Source of the DNA: Planctomycetaceae bacterium
GTDB lineage: Bacteria > Planctomycetota > Planctomycetia > Pirellulales > Lacipirellulaceae
Reading direction: 5' to 3'
Assembly (NCBI GenBank): GCA_002713555.1
Contig: PATG01000082.1
Coordinates: forward strand, 1 to 16,903
Length of the DNA: 16,903 nt
Under the pieces are notes generated by a model, which was not told the DNA's origin, made no database searches, and saw only the letters and a list, made by a program, of their open reading frames with translations. The translations under genes were made by a program, and so were the position numbers. Each line of letters opens with the position of its first letter. The stretch's first letter is position 1. Positions 3,773-10,910 of the stretch are shown in pieces.

Positions 3773-4444
3773 ATGTTGCTCCTGGAAAACGTTCGCAAAT
3801 CGTATCGCGAGCCCGACGGCGAGATTTTGCCCATCCTCGAGATCCCTCGACTGGAAATCGCTGCGGGAGAGCAAGTTGTCCTGCGCGGACGCAGTGGATG
3901 CGGCAAGACAACACTTCTGAACTGTATTTCAGGATTGAGCACAGTCGATGCCGGGAATATTTTTATTAATGAGCATGATATTACCGGTTTGCATGAGATG
4001 GCACGCGACCGTTTTCGTGCCCAGCATATTGGTTTCGTATTTCAAACTTTTAATCTTCTGCCCGCATTTACAGCACACGAAAATGTGCTCCTGGGCATGA
4101 CCTTTACGGGTCAGAAAACCGACCCCAAACGGGCGGCAAACCTCTTGGAGGAAGTGGGGCTCAGCCATCGTTCTCATCACAAACCGGCAGAGCTTTCGGT
4201 CGGTGAACAACAACGCGTTGCAGTAGCGCGCGCACTTGCCAACCAACCTTCGTTAATCCTGGCCGACGAACCAACTGCCAACATCGATCCTGCCCATCAG
4301 CAGCAGGTCATCGATCTCCTGCGAGGTGCTTGCGAAAAAGAGAATATCGCCATGCTTCTCGTTACACACTCTCCCGAAGTTTCGGCGCAGTTTGAGCGCG
4401 TCGACGAATTAGAAAAAGTAAATCAAGTTTTAGCAAAAGCGTAA
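3773..4444 (+). CDS. ABC transporter ATP-binding protein (LolD/MacB/DevA-like)
   Basis: A 223-residue single nucleotide-binding domain that powers the membrane permease encoded downstream, acting at the cytoplasmic face. Walker A is GRSGCGKTT (39-47), the Q-loop glutamine is in FVFQTFN (Q91), and the signature is LSVGEQQRVA (141-150, LSVGE in place of LSGGQ). Walker B is LILADEPTA (161-169), the D-loop is NIDPA and the switch histidine is H199 in LVTHS. All catalytic positions are intact, and the length fits the LolD/MacB-type ATPases that pair with FtsX-like permeases. These usually drive mechanical extrusion or lipoprotein movement rather than classical import. The gene starts at ATG with no clear Shine-Dalgarno sequence. 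The permease gene begins 63 bp later, presumably on the same transcript. The neighbouring DUF3299-like genes suggest an envelope metal-related role; this is inference. Confidence 0.93.
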   Translation: MLLLENVRKSYREPDGEILPILEIPRLEIAAGEQVVLRGRSGCGKTTLLNCISGLSTVDAGNIFINEHDITGLHEMARDRFRAQHIGFVFQTFNLLPAFTAHENVLLGMTFTGQKTDPKRAANLLEEVGLSHRSHHKPAELSVGEQQRVAVARALANQPSLILADEPTANIDPAHQQQVIDLLRGACEKENIAMLLVTHSPEVSAQFERVDELEKVNQVLAKA

Positions 4445-4507
4445 AATCCGCATTCAAGATCGGATTCTTTCCACACCACCCTATCTCGCGACCCCAGTAC
4501 CCATCCG

Positions 4508-5857
4508 ATGCCTTTCTGGAAAATAGCCTGGAGAAACATGGAGCAACGGTCCCTGGCTTCCTCGCTTACGGGTTTATCGATGGCGCTGGGGGTAGCGCTG
4601 ATGATCCTGGTGATCGTGATCCATCAGGTTGTGGTCAAGCAGTTTGAAGGGGATGCGGAAGGCTACCACTTAATTGTGGGGGGCGGCAAGGCAGGGGATG
4701 TTCAGTTGGTGATGAATACGGTCTTTCACATTGGTGAACCCATCTATCCCATTCCGTACAGCTATTACAAACAATTTGTCGATGGCGAATATGCGCCTTT
4801 CACTTCGGTGGCAATTCCCTATTGCATTGGCGACAGCTACCACATCAATGGCCTGCGATTTCGTGTCGTGGCAACCACTCCTGATTTGTTCGAGAAACTT
4901 GCCTACGGTGCCAACGAAGATGGCTCCGACAAGCGATATGAATTTTCTTCCGGGAGAAATTTTCGGTCCGATCATTTTTTTGAAGCCGTGATTGGTGCGG
5001 TGGTCGCCAGTAAATCCGGATTGGAAGTTGGCGATACGTTCCAACCGACTCACGGGATGAGTTCAAAGGGTGAAAAGCATATCGAGTTTGAAATTGTTGG
5101 TGTTTTGAAATCCACTGGAACATCCAATGACCGGGCAATCTTTGCCAATATGGAGGGGTTTTATCTGCTCGATGGCCATGCCATGCCATTAGAAGAGGGG
5201 GAGGAGGAGGCGGGGCAATCCATGAGCGAATCGGGCATGGCAGTATCCGTGGACCCCAAGGATCCCAATCGAGGGCGTAGTCCTTTGCCTGAGAGGCAGC
5301 GAGAAGTTACTTCGATCTTGGTGCGCTGCGAAAGTGACACGGCCATGATGTATCTGGACAATGCGATCAACAAGGGCAAGGATCGAACGACCGTAGCGGT
5401 GAAACCGGGCTATGTGGTGCAGGACATGCTCGACAATATTATTGGACCCATGCAATTGGTACTGCTGATCCTTACCGTTTTGATCGTGATCGTGGCAGGC
5501 ATTAGTATTTTGGTCAGCATCTACAACTCCATGAGTGAACGGAGCCATGATATTGCAGTCATGCGCGCTTTGGGTGCCAGTCGCACGGCCGTGATGGGAA
5601 TTATTCTTGTGGAGTCGATATTGCTCGCTCTTCTGGGGGGTGTCTCGGGTGTGGCACTGGGACATGTGGTCCTGGCGGCCATTAGCCCCTATGTTGAGAG
5701 TCAAAGTGGAATTACCTTGGGTTTTTGGCAGTTTAGCTGGCAGGAGGGTGTCCTGATACCCAGCCTGGTTGTGTTTGCTGTTCTGGTCGGTTATCTGCCT
5801 GCATTAACAGCGTATCGTACGGATGTGGGACGTGCACTCGGCAGCGGTCGATACTAG
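4508..5857 (+). CDS. ABC transporter permease, FtsX/MacB/DevC type
   Basis: A 449-residue inner-membrane protein with the four-helix MacB/FtsX topology. TM1 is at about residues 20-43, followed by a large periplasmic domain (about 45-310). TM2 (about 314-340), TM3 (about 363-392) and TM4 (about 412-434) follow. The cytoplasmic MSERSHDIAVMRALGASR segment just after TM2 is the typical family motif that contacts the ATPase. The periplasmic domain has an unusual acidic stretch (PLEEGEEEAGQ) and a charged linker around residues 225-265. With the ATPase it should form an ABC complex that moves or remodels something at the outer face of the inner membrane; the substrate cannot be read from sequence. 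Its stop codon lies in the left arm of an inverted repeat, and the CPFC gene follows 208 bp later. Confidence 0.9.
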   Translation: MPFWKIAWRNMEQRSLASSLTGLSMALGVALMILVIVIHQVVVKQFEGDAEGYHLIVGGGKAGDVQLVMNTVFHIGEPIYPIPYSYYKQFVDGEYAPFTSVAIPYCIGDSYHINGLRFRVVATTPDLFEKLAYGANEDGSDKRYEFSSGRNFRSDHFFEAVIGAVVASKSGLEVGDTFQPTHGMSSKGEKHIEFEIVGVLKSTGTSNDRAIFANMEGFYLLDGHAMPLEEGEEEAGQSMSESGMAVSVDPKDPNRGRSPLPERQREVTSILVRCESDTAMMYLDNAINKGKDRTTVAVKPGYVVQDMLDNIIGPMQLVLLILTVLIVIVAGISILVSIYNSMSERSHDIAVMRALGASRTAVMGIILVESILLALLGGVSGVALGHVVLAAISPYVESQSGITLGFWQFSWQEGVLIPSLVVFAVLVGYLPALTAYRTDVGRALGSGRY

Positions 5858-5954
5858 CCCAAATTACTTATACCGAGCTTAAATGGCTTCAGGCGGTCAG
5901 CGCATCTAAGCTACGGATAGCATTTGGTCCAGCACGCATTAAAGTAATGGGCTA
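5855..5954 (+). repeat. Nested inverted repeat between permease and CPFC genes
   Basis: The outer arms are tagcccaaattactt (5855-5869) and aagtaatgggcta (5942-5954), complementary apart from a 2-nt bulge. Inner arms are ccgagctta (5873-5881) and taagctacgg (5907-5916), with one bulged base. The element is 100 bp and begins exactly at the permease stop codon. No T-run follows, so it is not an obvious terminator. It could be an mRNA stability or processing element that tunes expression between the two genes, or a small MITE-like insertion. The remaining 5955-6065 holds nothing I recognise. Confidence 0.55.
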
Positions 5955-6065
5955 GTTGGTAGGCATTTGTCTGTTGCAGCCTGCTTGCTATAGGATGGGA
6001 GTAGGCAATCGAATGATCATTGCATCAACCTGGAGCCCAACCGTATCAGGAACTTCAAAGCAATA

Positions 6066-7703
6066 ATGTTTATACCCAAGCACAGACTCTTTTTGTGGAT
6101 GGGCTTCATGATGTACTCGGTGTGGTATGCCGGTACTGCCAATGTGAACGCTTGTCCGTTCTGTAGCGCAACACAGCAAACGATTAGCGAAGAAATAGCC
6201 TCTGCCGAAATCAGTGTGATTGCCAAGCTGATCCAGCCAGCTGCTACAAGTGATGATCCGACCAATTTTGATCTGGCGGGCAACGACTGCGGAATGGCGC
6301 GGTTTGCAGTACAAAATGTGCTCCGGGGAGATGAAAGTTCTGCCGCTATGGAAGAGATCGAGGTGGTCTACTTTGGCAAGGATGACAAGGATCGGAGTTT
6401 TCTCATCAATGCACTCGTCAATAAGGGGCCCAGGATAGAAAAGATCGCCGTTTCCAGCATTGATTGGGCGACACCTCTTCCTCTGACCGAGCGGGGAGTC
6501 CACTACGTCAATCAACTTGCAGACTTGCCTAAGAGAGGCGCAGATCGCCTGGCGTTTTTTCAAGAGCATTTGGAAGATGAAGATCCCCTCCTGGCACAAG
6601 ACGCGTACGATGAATTTGCCATTGCCCCTTATAGTGAAGTGGTTGATCTGGCAGATCGGATGGATCGTCAGCAGCTCATCGACTGGATTTCAGATCCGCG
6701 CATTGGCCCATCACGTAGGCGATTGTACCTGACCATGCTGGGCACATGCGGCACTGCGTCGGATGGGGAGCTATTAGAATCACAACTATTGTACGATTAC
6801 CAACTCCTGAAACCCGGAGTTTCGGTAATGCTAGCAGCTATGGCGCGCACGGGCCCGGCGATGAGTGTGTCGATTCTGGACGAATTGATTCGAGCTGATG
6901 TTCGACGTAAGCAACAATGCCTCGATGCGCTCATTGCGGCTTATCTAAAACTCAAGGGGCCAACTGGTTTGCCCTTGGTTGAAGAGAAGTTTCTCAGGAA
7001 TTCAGAAACAGAATACAGCCACACGTATGCTGCCTTGATGGCACTGCGATTTCATGGTGAGGAGACAGACGTTTTGCCGCGTGAGCGGATTCTGGAATCC
7101 TTACACTTGGTGCTCGACAATAAACAGTTTGCCGATCAGGTCGTTCCCGATCTTGCGCGTTGGGAAGACTGGAGCGTCATGGACAAGTTGGTTTCTTTAT
7201 TTAAAGCGGGTGAGAAAGACGGCTGGATCCGTCAACCAGTCGTTTCTTATTTGCTCGTGGCGGCCGAGCAGGAGGGGCCTGTTGGAGATCGCGCGGATGC
7301 CGCTCTCGCCGATCTGGAGGAGATTGATCCGGAGTGTGTGACCAGGGCACGAAGGAACTCCGCTTTTAGTATGTTTGCAGCCGCAGTCACAAAGTCTGGC
7401 GAGGGACTGGCAAAGACTCTTGAAAAACCCGTTGAAGCACCCCAAGGTGTGGTAGGGCAACCATCTCTAGAAAAAGCAGCACCGTCTACTCCGAACAGTC
7501 CCGAGTCGGCAAAAACAGCAGCAAAAATGACAAGTTCCGAGGTCCAACGTTCAGCAAAAGACAACGAAGGGTCCCCCAGTCAAATTATTTTGATTGGTGT
7601 TCCGCTGATAGCAGGTCTTGTATTGATGGGGATATTTGCCCTGTTGCTACGCGGGGCTGATGTGCGATCGGGTAGTGCAGACACTGACGTTCAAAACCAA
7701 TAA
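6066..7703 (+). CDS. Exported CPFC-motif alpha-helical protein with C-terminal membrane anchor
   Basis: The 545-residue product begins with a signal-peptide-like segment (hydrophobic region about residues 8-29). Immediately after it comes the motif CPFCSATQQTISEE, with Cys30 and Cys33 placed near the expected cleavage site. The central part (about 170-440) is rich in regularly spaced helices and resembles a HEAT/ARM-like solenoid, without a definite family match. A low-complexity Pro/Ala/Ser/Lys linker (about 453-503) leads to a C-terminal transmembrane helix (about 507-530) and a short acidic tail. The protein should therefore face the periplasm and be anchored at its C-terminus. The CxxC pair could bind metal or form a disulfide. 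It lies between the ABC permease and two DUF3299-like genes, 18 bp before the first, so a shared pathway is likely. I do not recognise a named family. Start: ATG, no evident ribosome site. Confidence 0.75.
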   Translation: MFIPKHRLFLWMGFMMYSVWYAGTANVNACPFCSATQQTISEEIASAEISVIAKLIQPAATSDDPTNFDLAGNDCGMARFAVQNVLRGDESSAAMEEIEVVYFGKDDKDRSFLINALVNKGPRIEKIAVSSIDWATPLPLTERGVHYVNQLADLPKRGADRLAFFQEHLEDEDPLLAQDAYDEFAIAPYSEVVDLADRMDRQQLIDWISDPRIGPSRRRLYLTMLGTCGTASDGELLESQLLYDYQLLKPGVSVMLAAMARTGPAMSVSILDELIRADVRRKQQCLDALIAAYLKLKGPTGLPLVEEKFLRNSETEYSHTYAALMALRFHGEETDVLPRERILESLHLVLDNKQFADQVVPDLARWEDWSVMDKLVSLFKAGEKDGWIRQPVVSYLLVAAEQEGPVGDRADAALADLEEIDPECVTRARRNSAFSMFAAAVTKSGEGLAKTLEKPVEAPQGVVGQPSLEKAAPSTPNSPESAKTAAKMTSSEVQRSAKDNEGSPSQIILIGVPLIAGLVLMGIFALLLRGADVRSGSADTDVQNQ

Positions 7704-7721
7704 ACCAACTTATAAATTCCG

Positions 7722-8414
7722 ATGGCAAGTGACGATTTCGAATACCGACCACTCAGCACTGGGGCGATTGTATCCGCCGTTTTTGGTGTGTTGTCCTTGT
7801 TGATATTTGTTGCCGCTGGCAGCAGTCTGTCTTCTTCCTTATGGCTAGCGCCGATACCCGTAGTGGGTCTTGTGGCCGGATCGTTATCACTGCACAGGAT
7901 TCTTGCGTTCCCTAACCAGCTCAGTGGGCGCCGAGTTGCAATGATCGGCATCATGCTATCCGTCCTGGGACTTGCAGGGGGGCTTGGTTATGCAGGATAT
8001 ATCCACGCCACAGAAGTTCCAGATGGATACATACGAACTTCTTTTTATGAATTTCGTCCCGATCAGGTCGAAGAACGCGGTGGTGACTATGTCCCCCCAG
8101 ACATTTTAGAACTCCATCAGAAGCAGGTTTTTATTAAGGGATTTATGCGTCCTGGAACACATTACTCTAAAGAAGGGACTCCCGTGCGTAACCATGTGAA
8201 CCGCTTTCTGCTGGTTCGCGACAATAATGAATGCTGCTTTGGCGATATCTCGGATGTGCAATATTTCGACCAGGTGCTCGTGCAGATGCAAGGCAATAAA
8301 ACGACGAACTATTCCGGGGGGATGTTTCGCATGGGAGGCACATTACGTGTTTTTCCCCGCAATGTCCATTTGAAAAAACCTGTCTACGTGCTAGTCGCCG
8401 ATTACGTTAAATGA
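7722..8414 (+). CDS. Three-helix membrane protein with DUF3299-like domain
   Basis: The 230-residue product has two parts. The first 92 residues hold about three transmembrane segments (about 14-33, 40-58 and 71-93) of a DUF4190-like style. The rest is an extracytoplasmic domain matching the DUF3299 pattern: strand VFIKGFMRPG (136-145), FLLVRDN (162-168), a vicinal cysteine motif CCFG (171-174), FDQVLVQM (182-189) and GGTLRVF (205-211). In proteobacterial DUF3299 proteins the equivalent strand ends in a single 'GAC' cysteine (from memory), so a Cys-Cys pair is a notable variant and could bind metal. The TGA stop overlaps the next ATG (ATGA, 8411-8414), implying translational coupling with the paralogous lipoprotein gene. 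Function is unknown; the context with an ABC transporter suggests work on the outer face of the inner membrane. Confidence 0.75.
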   Translation: MASDDFEYRPLSTGAIVSAVFGVLSLLIFVAAGSSLSSSLWLAPIPVVGLVAGSLSLHRILAFPNQLSGRRVAMIGIMLSVLGLAGGLGYAGYIHATEVPDGYIRTSFYEFRPDQVEERGGDYVPPDILELHQKQVFIKGFMRPGTHYSKEGTPVRNHVNRFLLVRDNNECCFGDISDVQYFDQVLVQMQGNKTTNYSGGMFRMGGTLRVFPRNVHLKKPVYVLVADYVK

Positions 8415-8917
8415 ATACCAACCGATTGTTCTGTGTCGTGGTTTTGATGCTGCTGTCAGCTATCCTGGGATGCAATCGTCAGCAGACCGTCGCTGCCAGT
8501 GGAGTGCGAGAAGCCTCTGATGACGTACAAGCTCCCCGCACGGTTTCTCGTATTGTAGATTGTACGTTTGACAATATTAAGTTCGACATGGCCGACCAGG
8601 CGACGTTTGAGAGAACTCTACTGACCCCTAAGATTGAGCAGCTTTTTGGCCAGCGGATCCGCATCCGAGGCTATATCTTTCCGACGCTCAAGAGAAAAGG
8701 TTTGAAGCAATTTATCTTAGTGCGTGACAACCTGGAGTGTTGCTTTGGACCCGGCGCTGCTCTGTTTGATTGCATTGCGGTCGAGATGGAAGCGGGTAAA
8801 ACGGCGGAATACTCATTTCGTCCGGTTATTGTGGAGGGCACATTTGGCTTGAATGTGCAAGAATTCAATGGCACGATTGTAGCCATTTATCGGATGAGTG
8901 GAGAAAATGTAGAGTGA
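8411..8917 (+). CDS. Lipoprotein with DUF3299-like domain
   Basis: A 168-residue protein with a short lipoprotein signal: hydrophobic LFCVVVLMLLSAILG followed by Cys21 (lipobox ILGC). A polar linker leads into a DUF3299-like domain: RIRIRGYIFP (82-91), FILVRDN (101-107), the vicinal cysteine motif CCFG (110-113), FDCIAVEM (119-126) and VEGTFGL (141-147). It is clearly paralogous to the preceding protein over this region, sharing LVRDN-x-ECCFG. It is translated from a 4-bp overlap with that gene. A lipid-anchored partner of a membrane-anchored paralogue suggests that the two form a pair on opposite membranes or a heteromer. In Pseudomonas the DUF3299 protein PA4066 is the last gene of a zinc-responsive operon with an ABC ATPase and an FtsX-type permease, which matches this layout. 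It is the last plus-strand gene before the convergent coiled-coil gene. Confidence 0.78.
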   Translation: MNTNRLFCVVVLMLLSAILGCNRQQTVAASGVREASDDVQAPRTVSRIVDCTFDNIKFDMADQATFERTLLTPKIEQLFGQRIRIRGYIFPTLKRKGLKQFILVRDNLECCFGPGAALFDCIAVEMEAGKTAEYSFRPVIVEGTFGLNVQEFNGTIVAIYRMSGENVE

Positions 8918-9113: not shown

Positions 9114-10865
9114 CTATTGCGGATCCTCCTCTTCTTCCTTGAGGCCCAATGCTGAGAGCCAGCGGTGGCGAGGTTTTCCTCTCGCGTCCGAGTTCGAGTC
9201 GTATTGGGTGTCTTGCAGTCCGGCTAGCCTTTCCTCCAGGTCTGATCGTTCACGCGCTAACTTGGCCCGGTCGACCGAGATTTCCAATTCGGCACTGCGG
9301 AGCTTTTCTTGCCATTCCTGCTGTAGCTTTTCCAGGCGGCGACGTTCTGTTTGTATCAGTTCGTCATTGCTGCAGATTTCTTCCTGGATAGCATGCTTCA
9401 TTGTTTCGATTTCGGCTTTAGCAGGACGCGCTTCTAGAGAAGCCTGCAGTTCGGCAATCTGCTTGTCCTTTTCGGCGACCACCTGATCAGTAAGCGTAAT
9501 AGTACCTTCAATGGTAGCTCGGGCCGCACGACGTTCGTCCGTCAACGAACTCTGCTCTTCGGCGTCCAATTCGGCCAGTAAGCGCGCTTTTTGTGCCTGC
9601 CAGTCCGATCCGTCAATGGCGGGATCTTCAGCAGCTAGAGGTTGTTGAGACAACTGTTCTTGCAGCTTGGAATTGATCTGTTTGAGCTGCCGCACATCGT
9701 CGGCAGCTAGTTCGAAACGACGTTGGAGATCAGATATTTCTTGCTGCAGGTCACCATCGATAACCTCGGGAGGTGAATTTTCAAGTTTGAAGACTCGGTC
9801 AGCCAACGCATCTCTCTCGCTGCGCAGGCTCACTAGTTCTGGTGAGGATTCGTCACTCGCAGCTGATCGGCTAGCCAACTCGGAGTTCAGTTCCGCATTT
9901 TCTCTTTTTAGCTTTTGGACATCAGCCAGTGCCAGCTCAAATTTTCGATTGAGTTGCTCAAATTGGTACTGGTGTTCCTGTTTATTGTCCAACTCCTGAA
10001 TACGCGTTTCGGCCGTCTTGAGCAAAGCTGCCATTTCTTCACTTTTGGCCACTAACTTTTCTAATGCAGCAGTCGTGTCGGATTGCAGCTGTTCCAGAGA
10101 ACGAAATTTCTCGTGTGCGCTTTTTAGCTGCTGCTGTAGTTCTTCATTCTGGTGTTGCAGGTTTTTGAGTTCTTCACTTTTGCTGGCACAGTCGGCACAC
10201 TCCTGAGTTTGGAGTTGTTCGAGGGATTGCTGGGTGGCATGGGGTTTGTCATGCAACTGCGAGGTTTCGTTCTGCTCCTGCTCGCGCTGTTGTTGGAGTT
10301 CGGTTAACTCATTGCGCAGGTTATCACAGGCACGATACGGTTCGGCGCGTAATTCTTTAAGTGCCCGCTGTGCAGCTTGCAAATCCTCGGAGAGCTGCGC
10401 ACCCGTTTCACTTTCTTTTTGCAACTGCCTGGCAAGTTCAGCACACTGGGATTGAGCTTGTTCAGCCTGCTCAATCAACTGTCCCAACTCTTCTTCGCGC
10501 TGATCGAGACGCTGCTGGTAGTCGCTGGCCTGGCTTTCCAGCATTTCTTGCAGGGACTGAATCTCAGCATCGTTGCCAGTCAGCGTTGATTGCAGGCCTT
10601 CAAGTTCTTCTTGCAATTGCGCAGCAGCGGCAGCTTCCATTTCTTCAGCGACACGATCTCGAGCAATCTCTTCTGCGATTTGTTTTAGGCGCAGATTGAG
10701 CTCTGCTTCGATATGGCTAACCCGGCGGCGATGGCCAGAAAGCGTTTCGTCGGCCTGCTCGCGCAATAGGCGCAGCTTTTCCGCAGTTTTTTGAGAGCGA
10801 TCGTCGCCCACAGTTTTCTGGGAACGCTCATCACGTTCCACGGGCCAGGATTGCGGTTCTTCCAT
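9114..10865 (-). CDS. Large coiled-coil protein
   Basis: This 583-residue protein (ATG at 10865; a TTG at 10898 would add 11 residues) is almost wholly predicted coiled coil. From about residue 25 to 545 it is dominated by Glu, Gln, Leu, Lys and Ala in heptad-like order, for example EELEGLQSTL and QQREQEQNETSQLHD. There is no signal peptide or transmembrane segment, so it is probably cytoplasmic and structural or scaffolding. Near the N-terminus a short motif is duplicated (ERSQKTVGD / DRSQKTAEK). A CxxC pair (CADC, residues 223-226) sits in the middle and could allow disulfide or metal cross-linking. The C-terminus is a non-coiled basic segment followed by an acidic end (GLKEEEEDPQ). Family and function are not recognisable, since coiled coils match many unrelated proteins. 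It is the last gene of the minus-strand run. Confidence 0.8.
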   Translation of the reverse strand: MEEPQSWPVERDERSQKTVGDDRSQKTAEKLRLLREQADETLSGHRRRVSHIEAELNLRLKQIAEEIARDRVAEEMEAAAAAQLQEELEGLQSTLTGNDAEIQSLQEMLESQASDYQQRLDQREEELGQLIEQAEQAQSQCAELARQLQKESETGAQLSEDLQAAQRALKELRAEPYRACDNLRNELTELQQQREQEQNETSQLHDKPHATQQSLEQLQTQECADCASKSEELKNLQHQNEELQQQLKSAHEKFRSLEQLQSDTTAALEKLVAKSEEMAALLKTAETRIQELDNKQEHQYQFEQLNRKFELALADVQKLKRENAELNSELASRSAASDESSPELVSLRSERDALADRVFKLENSPPEVIDGDLQQEISDLQRRFELAADDVRQLKQINSKLQEQLSQQPLAAEDPAIDGSDWQAQKARLLAELDAEEQSSLTDERRAARATIEGTITLTDQVVAEKDKQIAELQASLEARPAKAEIETMKHAIQEEICSNDELIQTERRRLEKLQQEWQEKLRSAELEISVDRAKLARERSDLEERLAGLQDTQYDSNSDARGKPRHRWLSALGLKEEEEDPQ

Positions 10866-10910
10866 GATGATGAAGCCGAAGTTGCCGGTGTCTAGCAATG
10901 GGAAAACGGT

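Follow-up and report, generated by a model that had tools for sequence, protein, structure and literature searches.

The stretch analysed here, which we refer to as the window, covers 16,903 nucleotides of a Planctomycetaceae bacterium (contig PATG01000082.1, forward strand), and the system in question is a cluster of five complete genes on its + strand at 3773-8917. X1 (3773..4444) encodes a LolD/MacB-type ATP-binding cassette (ABC) ATPase of 223 amino acids (aa), X2 (4508..5857) a four-helix FtsX/MacB-type permease of 449 aa, X3 (6066..7703) an exported CPFC protein of 545 aa with a C-terminal membrane helix, X4 (7722..8414) a membrane-anchored, DUF3299-type protein of 230 aa with a predicted OB fold and a CCFGD motif, and X5 (8411..8917) a DUF3299 lipoprotein-like protein of 168 aa with a CCFGP motif. 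The gaps are 63 bp between X1 and X2, 208 bp between X2 and X3 and 18 bp between X3 and X4, and X4 and X5 overlap by 4 bp. An earlier reading of the same DNA, hereafter the original prediction, had described a co-directional five-gene cluster with this 4-bp overlap and had proposed that it traffics metal; the open reading frame (ORF) list together with Pfam confirms the arrangement.

X1 matches ABC_tran in Pfam (E 7.5e-35), and by reading its Walker A, signature (LSVGEQQR) and Walker B motifs are intact. X2 matches FtsX (E 2.3e-14) and MacB_PCD (E 5.9e-10), and from its hydrophobic segments we read four helices, the first and second of them 274 residues apart, which is the MacB topology. Four residues in this extracytoplasmic domain between the first two helices, D109, H182, H191 and D208, are kept in 73, 75, 71 and 76, respectively, of the 77 permeases from a phylum survey, for which we took an even sample of 246 Planctomycetota genomes and accepted X2 matches at E<=1e-30. 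All four residues are also present in the four Zrg-type permeases compared (Vibrio sequences were not among them) and in all five permeases from the alkaline-phosphatase-linked operons described below; the five outgroup permeases lack both H182 and D208. A D/H/H/D signature exclusive to this lineage was rejected because LolC has D109 and LolE has H191, in each case as the only one of the four. A maximum-likelihood tree groups the planctomycete, Zrg and phosphatase-linked permeases together against MacB and LolC/E (support 83/96). The shared H182, H191, D208 and D109 argue for placing X2 in the ZrgB/PA4065 permease lineage, and H182, H191 and D208, perhaps together with D109, may serve as a site of metal contact.

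The best plasmid relatives of X2 were PA4065-type permeases (100 records matched). We opened ten X2-relative loci on plasmids, three of which have the order DUF2796-ABC-FtsX-DUF3299, with an upstream Fur-family regulator in Phaeobacter and a second DUF3299 gene in Sulfitobacter. On a Ruegeria conchae plasmid (L108, 3176-7076) the order is biotin/lipoyl-binding protein-ABC-FtsX-DUF3299; a second DUF3299 gene lies on the opposite strand of that locus at 9640-10404. Like PA4063-PA4066 and ZrgABCDE, the window cluster has a separate ABC ATPase and a four-helix MacB-type permease, with a DUF3299 OB-fold protein downstream. Unlike them, it has no DUF2796 protein (ZrgA), carries the additional X3, has two DUF3299 proteins with CC rather than CIH, one of them on membrane helices, and gives no sign of Zur control. 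Because DUF2796 was looked for in a Pfam scan and PF10986 matched none of the five proteins, we place the cluster as a sister variant and not as a member of ZrgABCDE. In the survey DUF2796 exceeded its cut-off in one of 246 planctomycete genomes, where the frame holds an internal stop codon, and reached E<=0.001 in 10. The original prediction had pointed to kinship with the PA4063-PA4066 and zrg operons, to the absence of DUF2796 and to an undescribed variant. The kinship is supported by the plasmid loci, the tree and the shared residues, and the absence of DUF2796 by the scan. As to novelty, neither a planctomycete version nor an operon led by a phosphatase turned up, by title and start of abstract, in the literature searched, which did not extend to subscription journals and most preprints.

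The Zrg/PA4063-PA4066 system is strongly induced by zinc starvation, yet its direction and mechanism are disputed. The Vibrio work argues for zinc import, zrg and zrgA mutants being described as impaired under zinc limitation (PMC9820375, PMC9817125), and a 2024 study of Pseudomonas aeruginosa argues that PA4065 exports a pyochelin-cobalt complex (PMC11481552). If the window cluster were a zinc importer, its extracytoplasmic proteins would act as substrate-binding proteins and X2 would pass zinc into the cytoplasm, as the Vibrio mutants might suggest; but type VII ABC systems move their extracytoplasmic domains and show no pore (PMC12646458), and the five cluster proteins match neither DUF2796 nor any solute-binding-protein family, so that we consider an importer quite improbable. 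A MacB-like exporter is in our view unlikely. In it X1-X2 would pump out a metallophore, or some other small molecule or peptide, and the part of the periplasmic adaptor MacA would be played by X3 and the DUF3299 proteins. Such an exporter would fit the MacB topology and the MacB_PCD and FtsX domains of X2, the export reported for the PA4065 homologue and the Ruegeria locus, where the ABC-FtsX-DUF3299 genes directly follow the biotin/lipoyl-binding, membrane-fusion-like gene. However, X1 and X2 are separate genes, E. coli MacB has neither H182, H191 and D208 nor D109, and a scan of the cluster's five proteins and of three from its flanks gave no match to a membrane-fusion family at E<=10.

Turning to the DUF3299 proteins, X5 scores 29.7 bits against PF11736, over the cut-off of 22, and by reading has a lipobox-like ILGC. 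X4 did not match PF11736 in the Pfam scan, where its one hit was DUF4190 at 17.5 bits, under the 35-bit cut-off; its N-terminal membrane part is DUF4190-like, with hydrophobic segments at 14-32, about 39-63 and 72-90 ahead of the DUF3299-like domain. Both the X4 profile and its predicted fold have PA4066, an OB fold, as best match, and among solved structures PA4066 stands nearest to both X4 and X5. Among X4 relatives, four of 20 match PF11736 at E<=1 (best 0.065), and a distant X4 from Singulisphaera scores 32.6 bits. Judged by profile and predicted fold for X4 and by the Pfam cut-off for X5, both are members of the DUF3299 superfamily, as had been proposed. The doubling that was thought distinctive proved not to be, as two DUF3299 genes also occur in Sulfitobacter and at 19 of the 77 planctomycete loci. 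X4 profile matches were found in 121 of the 246 survey genomes, part of them spanning the membrane part only. At the site of the CC motif, Cys-Cys is found in 72 of 79 planctomycete DUF3299 reading frames and CIH or CVH in all five proteobacterial DUF3299 proteins compared, so the metal, or the way it is handed over, may differ. Away from the ABC cluster, a reading frame of about 775 aa contains two DUF3299 domains, which score 119.7 and 62.5 bits (L081 of Bythopirellula polymerisocia, G003:C2:468178-469206), and at L075 (11318-12670) a single reading frame of 450 aa scores as a fusion of X4 and X5, with no X1 detected.

By reading, X3 opens with a stretch that resembles a signal peptide and ends in ACPFC, and one hydrophobic helix lies at 507-525. 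Its relatives were found in planctomycetes, and a CPFC-like motif is present in 68 of 70 rows of the family alignment. Window X3 itself matches no Pfam family up to E 10, and so yields no HEAT match; HEAT_2 appears at E<=1 in 32 of the 70 rows (best 3.3e-9), and two of seven short relatives have a HEAT match (E 0.02-0.06). The original prediction suggested that X3 may stand in for the DUF2796 protein, which we find unsupported. A DUF2796 identity of X3 was rejected, since window X3 shows no PF10986 match (E<=10) and PF10986 is not among the 25 families listed for the 70 rows. X3 as a replacement for the His-rich part of these systems (described below) is likewise unsupported, because X3 and a His-rich permease loop occur together at six of the nine X3-bearing survey loci. 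A glutaredoxin identity was likewise tried, the X3 profile giving weak glutaredoxin matches round CPFC (E 0.34-0.46). On these matches, and on the near-constant Cys motif, one could build a thiol-redox relay in which CPFC of X3 and CC of X4 and X5 exchange disulfides in the envelope with X1-X2 powering or gating the exchange. By reading, however, CPFC follows immediately upon the signal-peptide-like stretch and leaves no space for the first strand of a glutaredoxin, and at the corresponding site all five PA4066-type proteins compared show a single Cys together with a His, which makes such a relay very unlikely.

Six of the ten opened plasmid loci have a different composition, namely an alkaline phosphatase, a small exported CPFC protein, ABC and FtsX (L105 1605-6098, L106 2095-6200, L107 1869-6173, L197, L198 and L199). 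Their hosts are Deinococcota and Alphaproteobacteria: Deinococcus radiodurans, D. wulumuqiensis, Allomeiothermus, two Paracoccus and a Shinella. The phosphatase was checked against PF00245 at two of the six loci and taken from annotation at the rest, and at the D. wulumuqiensis locus (L199) a short permease abuts an IS6 transposase. These operons share with the window cluster the four permease residues (in the five permeases compared) and, next to the ABC and FtsX genes, a small OB-like protein that is exported and carries Cys, but they differ in having a phosphatase at the head, CPFC in the OB protein, and neither X3 nor X4. The small protein aligns with the X5 profile at a probability of 97.7 and with the X4 profile at 96.9, CPFC falling at the CC site. 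PF11736 had no match on the Deinococcus or the P. pantotrophus plasmid, and direct kinship of the small protein with the PA4066 type, which we also considered, is weak. Alkaline phosphatases of the PF00245 family are zinc enzymes, and the position of the phosphatase at the head of the operon suggests a client enzyme in the envelope.

Gene order among planctomycetes was counted in two samples. The first consists of the best 80 of 205 relatives, which are the permeases most like window X2 and so give no frequency for the phylum; 45 of the 80 loci have at least 1.2 kb before and at least 5.2 kb after X2, and the other 35 were dropped. The exact order X1-X2-X3-DUF3299-DUF3299 is found at 22 of these 45 loci, X1-X2 alone at 11, X1-X2-DUF3299 at five and X2 alone at three; L039 and L033 have an additional X3 copy, the latter without a detected X1, L035 has a single DUF3299 gene, and L075, with the X4/X5-like frame noted above, completes the 45. 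In the phylum survey, where some contigs stop close to the cluster, X2-X3-DUF3299-DUF3299 occurs in this order at three of 77 loci (G001, G127 and G211, the G001 stretch ending before X1), and a permuted X2-X4-X5-X3 with up to three X3 copies occurs at six (G054, G075, G158, G187, G233 and G244). A DUF3299 gene is linked downstream of X2 on the same strand at 56 of the 77 loci, 54 of them within 4 kb by listed coordinates. X3 matches were found in 18 of the 246 genomes and stand beside a DUF3299 gene in 14, including those with the ABC genes at another place; the remaining four genomes (G222, G088, G153 and G182) have X3 on a different contig, and three of these are weak matches. That the set is reordered yet retained speaks for one functional module. 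Neither of the outcomes named as refuting the original prediction, a lack of DUF3299 matches or a scattering of the genes in relatives, was therefore observed, and the genes tend to stay together, with Rhodopirellula solitaria as a scattered case: there a tandem DUF3299 pair lies by a recA-like gene (L084, 827-2388, by eye), and ABC-FtsX lies elsewhere in the genome, after an smpB-like gene (L072).

The loop of X2 after residue 224 is acidic in the window, and in many relatives a His-rich loop occupies this place. We counted a protein as His-rich when it has at least six His in 24 residues, a threshold fixed after the data had been seen. By this measure the permease is His-rich in 19 of the 77 survey genomes, G177 having been removed from an initial 20 because its run belongs to a lipoprotein in the same reading frame, and a TGT.D motif could be located in 17 of the His-rich permeases, where the run is 16 to 73 residues past that motif, in the same loop. 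The loop could be parsed in 70 of 104 sequences, and counts from that parse are not usable as frequencies. A first His filter had returned 19 genomes, four of them with ORFs judged false by reading (G111, G152, G187 and G240). As a control we examined 28 other MacB_PCD permeases in eight genomes, all with a His-rich X2; two were flagged, in both of which the His run precedes the first ATG of the stop-to-stop frame, and the control shows solely that other permeases in these genomes are not His-rich.

A second His-rich element is a family of lipoproteins with the pattern GC...(HDH)n...APHGG...LTGE.VGDTS, which is present in 23 of the 77 survey genomes and lies directly after X2 in 17 (L127, 4893-5408, and 16 more survey loci). 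Its model was seeded from 14 of the 23 matching genomes and its position filter was passed by 17; six matches lie in a long or displaced reading frame (G011, G114, G138, G177, G202 and G217). Seventeen of the 23 members are His-rich, and the other six have fewer than six His in 24 residues; the two members scanned, from L127 and L151, gave no Pfam family over cut-off. The His-rich permease and the lipoprotein family never occur in one genome (Fisher 0.0004, with related genomes not independent and the threshold post hoc). At six further loci (L040, L041, L044, L047, L048 and L049) a small lipoprotein, strongly His-rich in most, is encoded divergently from X2; these have no adjacent ATPase in the fetched stretch, and at five of them we read an OB-like NCPFC lipoprotein before X2.

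These His-rich elements in the operons of relatives strengthen the metal-handling role that had been proposed for the cluster, although it is still a role that we infer. They bear also on a lipid or lipoprotein extraction machine of the LolCDE or YbbAP-TesA kind, in which the OB-fold and HEAT-like proteins would be chaperones or cargo and metal would be incidental. LolCDE is a type VII ABC system like ours, LolD is the top NCBIfam model for X1 and X5 is lipoprotein-like; YbbAP-TesA ties a type VII ABC to an envelope partner, a hydrolase (PMC12646458), as the phosphatase-led operons might. On the other hand, X1 scores 189.3 bits against LolD, under the equivalog cut-off of 307.75, the cluster has one permease gene with DUF3299 partners, and YbbAP-TesA has a ten-helix permease and an esterase partner. 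An extraction machine would leave unexplained both the His-rich loops and lipoproteins of the sister operons and the Zur control of the proteobacterial homologues (PMC10393844), and we regard it as rather improbable.

The reading that we favour, and to which we give about an even chance, is that the cluster encodes a type VII (MacB/LolCDE-like) ABC machine of the ZrgBC/PA4064-PA4065 permease lineage that lacks ZrgA and drives a metal relay with ATP outside the inner membrane. The analysis establishes homology, gene order, the predicted fold of X4, the conserved residues and the His-rich elements of sister operons; metal binding, the metal itself, the direction and the role of X3 are inferred. 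In such a relay X1 would hydrolyse ATP in the cytoplasm, and X2 would use this to move its extracytoplasmic domain, in which the metal would be contacted by H182, H191 and D208, and perhaps D109. The OB folds of X4, held by membrane helices, and of X5, held by a lipid anchor, would give or take a transition metal, most likely zinc, through Cys-Cys, and X3, as an additional anchored protein, would offer or accept the metal or else dock a client. X2 would not have to conduct any ion across the inner membrane, the work being done outside.

Several observations weigh against this metal relay. The X2 loop of the window has one His and no His-rich run, its nearest kin (L001-L008) have one to five His there, and no protein of the cluster is His-rich; so it is the sister systems, and not the window itself, that supply the link to metal. 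At 37 of the 77 survey loci there is neither an in-place lipoprotein nor a His loop nor X3 (32 when displaced matches are counted). Metal-dependent regulation is unsupported, as there is no common upstream palindrome and no Rfam element: a usable start was available in 16 of 29 loci tried, the window included, and perfect palindromes with 7-bp arms occurred upstream of X1 in two of these 16 stretches, mutually unrelated and neither of them in the window (a search made without a Zur matrix, the site of Zur in planctomycetes not being known), and an Rfam scan of the window gave no match. The permease fork, at 83/96, falls short of the 95/80 mark and the outgroup branches are long, D109 and H191 each occur in one of the five outgroups, and several outgroup letters in the His columns are gaps. 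The phosphatase-linked OB protein reaches a probability of just 20 against the PA4066-type profile (six sequences versus five), and the metal preference of X4 and X5, with CC, may differ from that of PA4066, with CIH. In Ruegeria the relative sits next to a biotin/lipoyl-binding, HlyD-like protein, an arrangement expected of an exporter, and the studies cited above argue for pyochelin-cobalt export in P. aeruginosa and for zinc import in Vibrio.

A bolder extension of the metal relay, which we think unlikely, is that ABC, FtsX with H182/H191/D208 (and D109) and DUF3299 together form an ATP-driven machine that inserts metal in the envelope, its clients being extracytoplasmic metalloenzymes and its metal collector being interchangeable: ZrgA, a His-rich lipoprotein, a His-rich permease loop or perhaps X3. 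Metal insertion as a role of type VII ABC systems did not appear in the literature searched. If the extension were true, the choice between import and export for Zrg would be a false one. The planctomycete variants separate the constant parts (ATPase, H/H/D permease and DUF3299) from the exchanged His-rich part, the comparison names residues for mutation and leads to harmless organisms in which to try them, and the phosphatase-led operons suggest a client, so that a role in metallation is directly testable. Comparing the relatives gives new clues to the way in which such machines may handle metal outside the cell membrane.

In keeping with a planctomycete source, X2 is 100% identical to a permease from a Planctomycetaceae metagenome-assembled genome. 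Around the cluster, a folylpolyglutamate-synthase-like gene with Mur ligase domains (Pfam) lies to the left on the opposite strand, and to the right are an AMP-binding enzyme (Pfam) and, by eye, pheT-, pheS- and rplT-like genes. Promoter-like sites numbered four against a shuffle mean of 5.7 and terminator-like sites eight against 6.2, both within the shuffle range. Right after the cluster, at 9114-10898 on the - strand, is a 594-aa Gln/Glu-rich, coiled-coil-like protein with no Pfam family over cut-off, and at 53-331, also on the - strand, a reading frame carries the EF-hand-like stretches DTNGDRIINSREL and DQDKDGNLTYEE.

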